From Oscillospiraceae bacterium (GTDB lineage Bacteria; Bacillota; Clostridia; Oscillospirales; Acutalibacteraceae), in NCBI GenBank assembly GCA_902791335.1, contig CADAVL010000002.1, positions 1-41,310 of the forward strand: 41,310 nt of DNA, read 5' to 3'. The position numbers and the translations under genes were made by a program. The notes below the pieces were generated by a model, which was given only the letters and a program-made list of their open reading frames with translations, was not told the DNA's origin and did not search any database. Shown here piece by piece: positions 6,492 to 41,310 of this stretch; the stretch's first letter is position 1; the number at the start of each line of letters is the position of its first letter.

Positions 6492-7079
6492 ATGCTGAGA
6501 AAGATTCAAACGGTTTTGCCGATTCTTATAATGATAATGTTGCTATGCAGCGGCTGTTCGGGCAGCAATGTTTGGGAAGTACCTTCGGGGAATGCTTCGA
6601 GCAATAAGAACAGCATTGTTGAGAAAAACAAAATGCTTTGGAACAGTTCTGCGAGCAGCACGGACGCTGCCGCAGCTTCGTCATCCGTGAAAGTTCTCAC
6701 GGAAAGCGGTAAATCTTCCGGCAATGTTGTTTCTTCTGTAACGTCTGTTACTTCAAGCGTTTCTTCTGATAAGGTATCTTCTAAAGTATCTTCCTTCGGC
6801 AGAAATACGTCGTCCGAAAGCGGAAAGACGGTGAGCCGCTTGTCGTCGGGCAGTGCAAAAGGCAGTTTGTCAAAGAGTGTCAGTTCAAAGACTGCGAACA
6901 GTTCCGTGAAGACCACGTACAACACGGCCGATAAAGCCGGCAACATGGTCTGGATTCCGCAAAGCGGTTCAAAATATCACAAAAACGCCGGTTGCAGTAA
7001 AATGAAATCGCCCACAAAGGTTACAAGAGCCAAGGCGGAAAGTATGGGTTATACACCCTGCAAGCGGTGCTACAAATAA
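6492..7079 (+). CDS. Small lipoprotein with Ser/Thr-rich stalk and C-terminal Cys/His domain
   Basis: The start ATG at 6492 is preceded by GGAGGG and a good promoter; longer in-frame starts lie upstream of that promoter and are unlikely. The 195-residue product has a hydrophobic signal sequence ending in LLCSGC, read as a lipoprotein cleavage site although the -3 residue is Cys rather than the usual Leu/Val. A low-complexity stalk rich in Ser, Thr and Val (about residues 35-150) should span the cell wall. The last about 45 residues (VWIPQSGSKYHKNAGC ... GYTPCKRCYK) form a compact module with three Cys and a His, resembling the Ada-like metal-binding tail often found at the end of secreted clostridial nucleases and lipoproteins. 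Its function is not known. It is divergent from the LysR gene. Confidence 0.8.
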   Translation: MLRKIQTVLPILIMIMLLCSGCSGSNVWEVPSGNASSNKNSIVEKNKMLWNSSASSTDAAAASSSVKVLTESGKSSGNVVSSVTSVTSSVSSDKVSSKVSSFGRNTSSESGKTVSRLSSGSAKGSLSKSVSSKTANSSVKTTYNTADKAGNMVWIPQSGSKYHKNAGCSKMKSPTKVTRAKAESMGYTPCKRCYK

Positions 7080-7181
7080 AGCGGCTGATTGGAGTGTTTT
7101 CAGCCCGGTTTTGCACTTTATCGCAGGCTTAATTCTAAGCTTTGGCTTTTTTATTCCTGCTTTTTCAGCTCTTTATCATTC

Positions 7182-7334
7182 AAACGTCAGCAATCCAAAA
7201 AGGGAGGTTCCCCGCGCGGCGCGCCTTTTTTCAGAAGAAAAAAGGCTTTAAAGCGGCCTTTAGGCCGCTTTACCGGCGTTTTTTTGCGCCGGCGCCGCGC
7301 GGGAAACCCGCCTTTTTTTGGACGGCTGACGTTT
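7182..7334. repeat. Cloverleaf palindrome, copy 1
   Basis: A 153-bp intergenic element. Its ends AAACGTCAGC (7182-7191) and GCTGACGTTT (7325-7334) pair perfectly. The stem continues inward with small mismatches and closes on a perfect 12-bp core CCCGCGCGGCGC (7211-7222) with 7292-7303. Inside are three hairpins in a row: a 10-bp stem at 7223-7246 (loop AGAA), a 10-bp stem at 7249-7272 (loop TTTA), and a 6-bp GC stem with a T-rich loop at about 7273-7291. The long T runs could also terminate transcription. The same plan recurs at 41147-41287. No protein is encoded; its origin and function are unknown. Confidence 0.8.
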
Positions 7335-7378
7335 TTTTCATCTTGTGACAAATTCACAAAAAGTTCACGAATTAGCTA

Positions 7379-36100: not shown

Positions 36101-36184
36101 AAGTTTTCTTAAAGAGTTCGCTGACAAGTATAAAACCTGTTGGCTGAATCATATGGATATTTGAAAATTAAAGGGGGTATGCGT

Positions 36185-37241
36185 ATGAGCGACGGAGCTT
36201 TGGAGGAGACAGTACTTTCCGGTTCCGTGGAACACATTACCTACAGCAATAAACAAAACGGATACTGCGTTTTTTCTTTGAAAACCGCCACCGAAACGAT
36301 CACTTGCGTTGGCACTGTACCGGAGCTTCATGCTGATGAGTCCTTGAAGGTTCACGGCGTTTACGGAATTCACCCAACCTACGGTCAGCAATTCAAGGTC
36401 ACAGCCTATGAACCGCTTGCACCGGAGGGCAGTGCCGAAATATTACGCTATCTTTCGTCCGGCGCGATCAAGGGAATCGGGCCTGCTACGGCAAGAAAAA
36501 TTGTGGAACGGTTCGGCTCGGATACGCTGGAAGTGATTGAAAACGATTATGCGCGCTTGAGCGCGATTCGCGGCATTTCACTTTCAAAAGCAAAGCAGAT
36601 CAGTGATAGCTATAAAAAGCAGCATGGAATTCGTGATGTAATGATGCAGCTTGGACGCTATGGAATCACGCCGGAGCAGTCAAATAAAATTTACGGGCTG
36701 CTCGGCAAGGACTGTGTTGCAAAAATTGCGGAAAATCCGTTTGTTTTGTATCATGACGACCTTGATTTCAGCTTTCAAAGGGTTTGTGATATTGCGGCGC
36801 AGTTCCATGTTGAGAACGACTCCATGGGTAGAATTCGCGCCGGCATGCAGTACATATTAAAGCACAATCTTTTAAACGGCCACACCTGTTTGCCGCACCA
36901 AAAGCTGATTGAACTGAGCACTTCTCTTTTACAATGTGAGGAATCGGCAGTCTTGGCCGCTTATGAGGAAATGCAGCGTGACGTTCTTTTGAAATGCGTG
37001 CAGATTGACGGCAAGGATTACGATTTTTTGCAGCGCTATTACACGGCAGAAAGGTATATTGCCACCAAATTTAAAATTATGCTCGATATTAAGCCGAAAC
37101 GCCTGAATACGCCCAAAGGGTTTATTGAGGCTTTGCAGAAAAAATTCGGCATTGTTTATGAAAAAAGACAACGGGAAGCGATCAACATGGCGGTTGATAA
37201 AGGACTGCTCGTGTTGACCGGCGGCCCGGGTACAGGTAAAA
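36185..37241 (+). CDS. recD2: RecD2-type DNA helicase, exon 1 (interrupted by group II intron)
   Basis: RecD2 is a 5'-3' superfamily 1B helicase in repair and replication-fork maintenance. ATG 36185 has AAAGGGGG 7 nt upstream; the ATG at 36179 is too close. Exon 1 encodes the N-terminal OB-like domain (VLSGSVEHITYSNKQNGYCVFSL), a helix-hairpin-helix block (IKGIGPATARKIVERF; LSAIRGISLSKAKQI) and motif I up to GGPGTGK (K352). The frame then runs into the intron and stops within about 50 nt. The exon ends GGTAAAA; the split codon A (37241) plus CA (38021-38022) encodes T353. Together with exon 2 the spliced gene is 2208 nt, 735 residues, the normal RecD2 length. Confidence 0.93.
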
Positions 37242-38020
37242 GTGTGACGCGTTCCTGCGTGAAAAGCGTAGGCCTTGCGGCTTGGAATTTTTAAAAAATT
37301 GCCGCATGAGAACTGATTTTTTGACGGACAGAATGACGGGGGTAACGCTCTTATAAATGTCCGCTCTGCAAACTGCGACGTGCGCGTGTTTTAAGTGATT
37401 TTTAGAATCTGCTTTTTAAAATGTGCGTTCGATAGCTCGCCAAAGTCGGCAGACGTTTTCCTAAAGCAAAGCCATGGAAAGCAATATGCCGGGAGTCTTT
37501 AAAACGTCTATGGTCAGAATGCCGCATGGTGTGGCTGACGAACCCGCGAATGTACGGACCTATAGTACCAATACTGAAAAGTATGCTGCAAATGTTGCGG
37601 CGTCAGTGAGGTTGAGTATTCTTTTTACTGAGAAAGACCTTATACCGTTACAGGCGGTATCCGGCTGACAGGTTCAGAGTGGGGACCTACGGGCGATAAT
37701 AGGAATATGATAGAAAAATCGGAACGCGGAAAGCTGAGGAACAAATCGGCAATTTAAAAGTTGTCGATTTGGCGGCGGCGAAGAAAATAAGCGCCCTTAT
37801 TCTTAGTGAGAGCGGTGCCACAGTACCTATGAAACAGTGATAACAAGCTGCGGAGGGATAGGCACCAGTCGCAAGCAGGCTTGAAAATGTATAAATATAC
37901 AAATTTTGTATATTTTGAAACCTGTCTGCGAGGGAACGCCGTATGAGGGGAAACTTTCACGTACGGTGTGGAGCGGGGGAAAATCCGGAAGTTTTTAATG
38001 AAAGGATTACCTATCGCTAT
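37242..38020 (+). mobile_element. Group II intron lacking an intron-encoded protein
   Basis: A 779-nt intron starting GTGTG (matching GUGYG) and ending CTAT (matching AY). Domain V (37936-37969) is a textbook 34-mer. Domain VI follows: AGCG (about 37972-37975) pairs with CGCT (38015-38018), AAATCC pairs with GGATT, and the likely branch A at 38013 is 8 nt from the 3' end. EBS1 TTTTAC (37623-37628) is complementary to the last six exon bases GTAAAA; EBS2 GTACC (37565-37569) matches exon GGTAC (37229-37233). Domain IV is reduced to an AT-rich hairpin (about 37880-37925) with no reverse-transcriptase gene. Splicing would need a maturase from elsewhere or be self-directed. All this is read by eye. 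Confidence 0.92.
37936..37969 (+). ncRNA. Group II intron domain V (catalytic hairpin)
   Basis: The 34 nt form an 8-bp lower stem (ACGCCGTA with TACGGTGT, one G-U), a 2-nt CG bulge on the 3' side, a 6-bp upper stem (TGAGGG with CTTTCA) and a GAAA tetraloop. The catalytic triad reads CGC at positions 2-4. This is the most conserved part of group II introns and is intact. Confidence 0.93.
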
Positions 38021-39171
38021 CAACGACCTTAAAAGGGGTTATCAGTCTTTTGGAAACCTCCGGTTTTGACGTGGCATTAGCGGCACCCACCGGACGCGCT
38101 GCTAAAAGAATGACCGAGCTTACCGGTCGCGAGTCAAAAACCATTCACCGACTTTTGGAGGTGGAATGGGACGAGCATGACAACCAGGTATTTACAAGAA
38201 ACGAGCACAATCCTTTAAGCTGCGACGCCATTATTATTGATGAAATGTCTATGGTGGATTCGCTGCTATTTGAATGCCTTTTGCGTGCGCTACCGCTGGG
38301 GTGCCGCATTATTATGGTCGGCGACGCGGATCAGCTGCCGAGTGTTGGTGCCGGAAACGTGCTCAGTGATATTATCTCTTCCGGTGTGGTGCCGGTGGTG
38401 GAATTAAAAGAAATCTTCCGCCAGGCGATGACAAGCCTTATTATTACCAATGCTCATAAAATTGTGGGGGGCGTACATCCGGAGCTTGACAGCAAAACCG
38501 GCGATATGTTTATGATCGACATTGTAAATCCGCGCAGTGCCGCGCAGTATATCAATGATCTTTGTGTGCGGCGACTGCCGAAAGCTTACGGTTATGACTG
38601 CATCAGTAACATTCAAATTCTGTGTCCCTCTAAAAAAACGGCGCTCGGCACGGTAACGCTCAATAATATGCTGCAAAATTCCTTAAATCCGCCGGACGAG
38701 CGTAAACCCGAAATTTCCTTTAAGGGCTACGTTTTGCGCTTGGGCGACAAAATTATGCAGATCAAAAATAATTATGATATTGAGTGGACACGTGACAACA
38801 ACGAAAAGGGCAGCGGCGTGTATAACGGCGATATCGGTGTGATTACCGACATCAATACGCTGAGTATGAAGCTGACCGTTCGTTTTGACGACAGGGTGGC
38901 GGTTTACAATGTGGAAGAAGCAAATCAGCTGGAGCTTTCCTATGCGGTCACCATTCACAAAAGTCAGGGCAGTGAGTTTGACTGCGTGATTTTGCCGATC
39001 CTCGACACGCCGCAAAAGCTTTGCTACCGAAATCTTCTTTATACGGCCGTTACAAGAGCCAAAAAGCAATTGATCATTGTGGGCGACAGAAGGCTGGTTC
39101 ATGAAATGACCGACAACTATCGCCGAACCCTTCGCTATACCGGATTGGATGCGTTTTTGAAAAATGAGTAA
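38021..39171 (+). CDS. recD2: RecD2-type DNA helicase, exon 2
   Basis: Continues the helicase after the intron. Base pair 38021-38022 completes codon 353 and the frame reads TTLKGVISLLETSGFDVALA, which continues motif I into the next helix. Later helicase motifs are intact: APTGRAAKRM (motif Ia), IIIDEMSMVD (Walker B), GDADQLPSVGAGNVL (motif III), ELKEIFRQA, and the C-terminal SYAVTIHKSQGSEFDCVILP and LLYTAVTRAKKQLIIVGD (motifs V and VI). It overlaps comF by 8 nt at its end. Taken alone it could be mistaken for a truncated helicase starting at TTG 38050, but that start has no ribosome binding site and lacks the P-loop. Confidence 0.93.
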
Positions 39172-41119: not shown

Positions 41120-41146
41120 ACAATGTAAACCGTTAAAAACTGCGAT

Positions 41147-41287
41147 AACGCACAAAAAAGCAAAAGCGGCAGTCTCCCGCGCGCCGTCGCCGAAAGGCAA
41201 CCGCCAAACTCGAAAGAGTTTGGCGGCGGACGTTTTTTAAAACGTCACGGCGCGCGGGAGACTGCCGCTTTTGCTTTTTTGTGCGTT
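41147..41287. repeat. Cloverleaf palindrome, copy 2 (perfect 41-bp outer stem)
   Basis: A 141-bp element. Bases 41147-41187 are an exact reverse complement of 41247-41287 (41 of 41). The core is CCCGCGCGCCG, close to that of copy 1. Between them lie three hairpins in a row: GCC-GAAA-GGC (41189-41198), an 11-bp stem with GAAA loop (41201-41226), and GACGTTTT/AAAACGTC (41229-41246), leaving only 6 unpaired linker bases. Sequence outside the core differs from copy 1 while pairing is kept, so structure rather than sequence appears conserved. It follows the MreB-like gene terminator and encodes no protein. Confidence 0.88.
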
Positions 41288-41310
41288 GAAACCGGGATAG
41301 TGGGATTTTG

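Follow-up and report, generated by a model that had tools for sequence, protein, structure and literature searches.

The MITE-like palindromic repeats of bacteria are the nearest class to the repeat family reported here. Within that class, ERIC, Correia/NEMIS and RPE are, according to the available part of a review of small palindromic bacterial repeats (PMC10969869), short, non-coding, multi-copy, intergenic and lineage-limited, with inverted-repeat ends and without a transposase of their own, and the family resembles them in each of these respects. It departs from the elements treated there in forming a cloverleaf with three further near-perfect hairpins and in comprising, within a single genome, many diverged subfamilies, each apparently re-matched, with no target duplication found; the word cloverleaf has no occurrence in that part of the review, and the literature searched held no bacterial cloverleaf repeat of a comparable kind. 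REP/REPIN sequences with RAYT are likewise dispersed intergenic palindromes able to form large hairpins or cruciforms, with REP stems of 5 to 13 bp and a GTAG or CGTC tag (PMC3733652, in the text available). Membership in that group was rejected on stem length and tag: stems here are mostly 30 to 50 bp, neither tag was noticed in the flanks, which are not conserved, and the incomplete draft genome yielded no RAYT.

Three further systems are comparable, each as described in the accessible part of its source. Nematomorpha mitochondria also have perfect inverted repeats with arms that change together, template switching being offered as one mechanism, but these lie in coding genes and in mitochondria, whereas the present family is interspersed (PMC6649704). 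The LIMP palindromes of Lobosphaera mitochondria are likewise lineage-specific, dispersed and cruciform-capable; unlike the cloverleaves, each is a single hairpin made of a repeated pentanucleotide and closed by a fixed loop (PMC4524435). Hairpin maintenance by template switching, with matched stem changes made in one event, is the same process as that proposed below, seen in rRNA and microRNA genes and not in a repeat family (PMC8794818). Here, we describe a non-coding, MITE-like interspersed cloverleaf repeat, lineage-limited as far as seen, whose arms were probably re-matched by fold-back or template-switch DNA synthesis, and whose mobility and mechanism we infer. What is new is the cloverleaf plan together with the re-matching of the arms; the MITE-like palindromic repeat is the known class.

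The window (the whole stretch of 41,310 nt that was analysed) is contig C2 of a draft genome (2.1 Mb, 194 contigs, 81% complete). A first-pass annotation had marked a perfect 41-bp inverted repeat around three hairpins at 41147-41287, and an inverted-repeat search bore this out, the 41-nt arms (41147-41187 and 41247-41287) being 100% complementary at a spacing of 59 nt; an extra T-G pair is possible just outside the perfect stem, at 41146/41288. The DNA fold of 41147-41287 reached -82.4 kcal/mol, compared with -32.6 (SD, 2.95) for 200 dinucleotide shuffles (z, -16.9), and 0/200 shuffles folded as stably. All bases except loops and 6 linker bases had been described as paired; the hairpin plan stood, with 5 linker bases in the fold. 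The window features are as follows, the detector and covariance model being described below.

41146 to 41187, plus strand: left arm of the outer stem (perfect over 41147-41187), from the fold, inverted-repeat search and detector
41189 to 41198, plus strand: short hairpin of 3 bp with a GAAA loop, from the DNA fold
41201 to 41226, plus strand: middle hairpin of 11 bp with a GAAA loop, from the DNA fold
41229 to 41246, plus strand: third hairpin of 7 bp, from the DNA fold
41247 to 41288, plus strand: right arm of the outer stem (perfect over 41247-41287), from the fold, inverted-repeat search and detector
7182 to 7334, minus strand (the better model match): second cloverleaf of the same family, from the inverted repeat, fold, detector and covariance model

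Upstream of the palindrome at 41147-41287 lies a plus-strand open reading frame (ORF; last base, 41030), and downstream the contig ends after 23 nt. In each outer arm there is a hairpin with a T run that resembles a terminator, the two being on opposite strands. The nearest known relative of this copy is 22% different, though its outer arms are perfect. Left of 7182, the crude gene finder gives a minus-strand ORF and the ORF list a plus-strand one ending at 7079. No Rfam family reached its gathering score over either element. Elsewhere in the window, a group II intron in which no long ORF is evident (37240-38035; matches to Rfam RF02004 at 37308-37503 and to RF00029 at 37934-38020) interrupts, at a GGPGTGKS motif, a gene that we take to encode a RecD-like helicase (ORFs 36140-37294 and 38050-39171).

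Covariance model R1 was built from 28 copies of subfamily A, neither window element being among them, and matched both (41147-41287, E 6e-16; 7181-7335, E 9.1e-13). It matched at least about 69 places in the draft genome, about 60 of them full-length (a distinct count over 118 rows, with both strands and partial matches merged, the best 150 of 2,234 first-look candidates having been scored). Places found by BLAST with the window element in its own genome mostly folded into a long outer stem with short, middle and third hairpins. A detector (inverted seeds, then RNAfold, then a branched junction with at least 80% paired) gave 26 hits in 429 kb of this genome, 24 of them clean three-arm cloverleaves, and 0 hits both in shuffled sequence and in 50 kb of Escherichia coli; by simple scaling of detector counts, the genome would hold roughly 110 to 120 copies. 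The reading as a four-way junction or cloverleaf is upheld, and the same plan recurs in the second window copy and at dozens of other places; the first-pass annotation had staked its case on further copies of this architecture, and many exist. One analysis took 25 of the 26 hits, and the location analysis took 24 (excluding L038:11160, which has two branches, and L046:19190, a nested duplicate). Of the 30 best A loci, 28 entered the A-alignment analyses (L098 had no detector hit, and L111 was two-branched), and a 57-copy comparison was limited to distinct three-branch copies.

The 57 distinct copies examined are short, non-coding and multi-copy, with terminal inverted repeats. Copies measure 111 to 277 bp by detector bounds, mostly 140 to 200, and outer stems of the 57 have 12 to 80 paired positions, mostly 30 to 50 bp; outer-arm sequences, lengths and hairpins differ widely from copy to copy. 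One copy of subfamily A used as query retrieved 40 distinct places, of which one was itself and the rest were 75 to 88% identical, and subfamily B comprises a handful of copies. In the 28-copy A alignment, the junction stem GCGCGCCGC and the short arm CGCCTTCGGCG are conserved, the middle arm varies in sequence and length, and copies end near GAACC...GGTTC. The A ends are sharp, with flanks beyond them unrelated between copies and not conserved.

Several other arrangements were observed around the copies. At two places, C11:14761-15140 and C14:2654-3047 (L046, L049), an A copy adjoins a B copy across a similar linker, and at L102, right of 1631, one A copy is followed by tandem units resembling the A-element end (TTTCATCGCGGTCGGTTT...). 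Several A copies adjoin a different dispersed repeat, some 300 nt long and partly palindromic, and a repeated motif is found intergenically as well as at a contig end.

L121:1190-1495, L099:1813-1980, L106:1173-1450 and L048:16505-16630: partly palindromic repeat, CTCGTCAGCCTAGGCAAG...
L045:4100-4145, L046 near 15200, L032 near 260, L120:530-580 and L182: repeated motif AAATGTCAGGCGTGACGGGTTC

Element similarity was found at 6/40 contig ends, two of which hold complete copies, and a short-read draft may have lost young copies that are nearly identical. The start of contig C14 and the end of contig C23 have roughly 100 nt in common, which looks like a further repeat at which the assembly breaks.

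All cloverleaves in the location analysis (24/24) lay outside genes predicted by the crude gene finder, though 79% of the sequence is coding. Among 22 copies with both neighbouring genes, 14 lay between same-direction genes, 7 between convergent and at most 1 between divergent ones, and terminator-like hairpins occur near several A copies. Two of the checks proposed by the first-pass annotation, BLASTN against the genome and its relatives and covariance modelling, both returned further copies in the same genome. Outside it, BLAST with the window element gave weak short matches alone (4/97 genomes), and model R1 matched 0/119 other genomes of the family and 0/294 other genomes in a sample of the order. 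The detector, run on 613 kb from relatives (40 genomes, each contributing a single stretch of up to 20 kb), gave 2 hits, neither of the cloverleaf-family kind; a different branched hairpin, built on repeated TATGATATA units, was seen at L074:12804-12912 in a relative of the same order. The family was absent from the phages, plasmids and viral contigs searched. A GTDB pattern scan, in which records of or near this genome may be missing, gave 2 hits in unrelated genomes that were taken as chance. The nearest sampled relatives have about 60% LigA identity, too distant for a comparison of empty sites.

Under selection on an RNA, G-U intermediates should be many and A-C intermediates few, whereas a DNA palindrome in neutral decay should have the two in equal numbers. 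Across the A alignment, 95.0% of cells pair (37 to 50% with partners slid), and both sides have changed at 30/57 pairs (0/500 shuffles as high), sequences differing between copies with pairing kept. Imperfect pairs numbered 44 G-U and 46 A-C in the column count, as expected if the symmetry arises in DNA and then decays and not under selected RNA pairing; A outer stems held 30 G-T and 33 A-C. In RNAfold-trimmed stems of the 57 copies, G-T exceeded A-C (78 versus 59 in outer stems, 39 versus 13 in inner arms), which is partly or wholly an effect of helix-end trimming. Double transversions, which G-U cannot bridge, occupied 43 cells, and single-side transversion mismatches numbered 26. Middle arms span 8 to 25 bp, with halves equal in 43/57 copies.

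Divergence between the two arms of a copy averaged 5.5%, against 16.1% to the nearest other copy, with none listed below 12% (43/57 copies with a neighbour), and copies with arms 0 to 3% diverged were likewise separated from their nearest relatives by at least 12%. Double changes come in runs (23 adjacent versus 9.8 expected; 0/2,000 permutations); single mismatches cluster too (23 versus 13.2; 5/2,000 permutations), which weakens the argument from runs. Unmatched private changes (51) outnumber matched ones (16), so that re-matching is at most partial. The pairing and divergence data fit arms copied, to that partial extent, from each other in DNA.

The first-pass annotation had also pointed to a RAYT/IS200-like transposase. 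This link was not supported: the incomplete draft yielded one Y1_Tnp match, a 150-amino-acid ORF that we take to be an ordinary IS200-type TnpA, and no RAYT, and mobilisation by that route was set aside. Retroposition by a host reverse transcriptase was set aside because RVT_1 had no match in the draft, as was inverted copying of flanking DNA, the flanks having no excess of inverted similarity. An outer motif, CTCGTCAGCCTA, was considered as a shared feature; with up to 2 mismatches it occurred at 25 sites versus 30 in base-shuffled sequence, no overall excess, and its recurrences seem to be parts of other repeats. No clear excess of target duplications was seen for k of 1 to 12 in 19 A copies with defined ends (k = 1, 7 versus 3.9 expected), and no gene flanked by element arms, as an autonomous partner would be, was noticed among matches to an A copy in the 81%-complete draft. 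Models of the hairpin nuclease subunits SbcD and SbcC had no match in this draft; among 40 genomes searched, this one included, 13 passed the SbcD cut-off, and SbcC was below its cut-off in 40/40. Since SbcD absence is common among these genomes, loss of SbcCD was rejected as the sole cause and would be at most permissive.

Under the preferred reading, copies would have spread between genes, the many copies with unrelated flanks being what is observed, and one arm would be copied from the other by fold-back or template-switch synthesis, so that stems stay complementary. This copying may take place at replication of a resident copy or at the making of each new one; between such events unmatched mutations would build up and the palindrome would decay, and the apparent absence of SbcCD may be permissive. 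One more specific form is possible, and we propose it tentatively: resident palindromes would correct themselves, continual concerted evolution of the arms through replication template switching keeping dozens near-perfect while copies diverge by 12 to 20% with SbcCD apparently absent, or else multiplication through a folded single strand would copy one arm from the other every round. The data are compatible with either timing. Gene conversion between arms, one of three causes that the first-pass annotation had offered for the perfection, is the best fit, though not separated from re-matching at each multiplication. Recent origin does not easily suffice alone, given a nearest known relative 22% diverged, with the caveat that a short-read draft may hide young copies; strong selection, in its RNA-pairing form, lacks the G-U excess expected of it in the column count.

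That last form, a structured RNA element (a bidirectional terminator, 3'-end stabiliser or RNase III substrate) with pairing kept by selection, would account for the strong covariation, the intergenic placement rarely between divergent genes, the hairpin and T run in each outer arm of the window copy and the inner-arm surplus of G-T. We consider it unlikely: neither the column count nor the A outer stems carry the G-U excess, lengths, outer-arm sequences and hairpins vary widely among copies, relatives in both the family and order samples lack the element, and no Rfam family matches at its gathering score.

An ordinary MITE, with arms perfect because an unseen transposase made the copies recently and without any copying between arms, has in its favour multi-copy subfamilies with sharp ends, mismatches that resemble neutral decay and a draft incomplete enough that a partner gene may be missing. 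Yet arms 0 to 3% diverged sit in copies at least 12% from any relative, matched double transversions and symmetric hairpin-length changes would still need an origin, and target duplication was not found in the 19 A copies, which leaves this explanation rather improbable. Fold-back chimeras from assembly or library preparation might be suspected in a draft of so many contigs, with the window copy so near a contig end and some contigs starting within an element; dozens of contig-internal copies with a common architecture and core sequence, carrying arm-arm mismatches, make such an artefact very improbable. The first-pass interpretation of 41147-41287 is, overall, partly supported.

Most of what is known about template-switch correction of palindromes comes from reporter loci and single genes. 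A genome carrying dozens of diverged, near-perfect cloverleaves would make the rate of correction, its patch length and its strand bias measurable on natural sequence. The family also carries a caution, that strong covariation need not imply a functional RNA, and such a genome would offer a test of whether palindromic repeats accumulate once SbcCD is lost.
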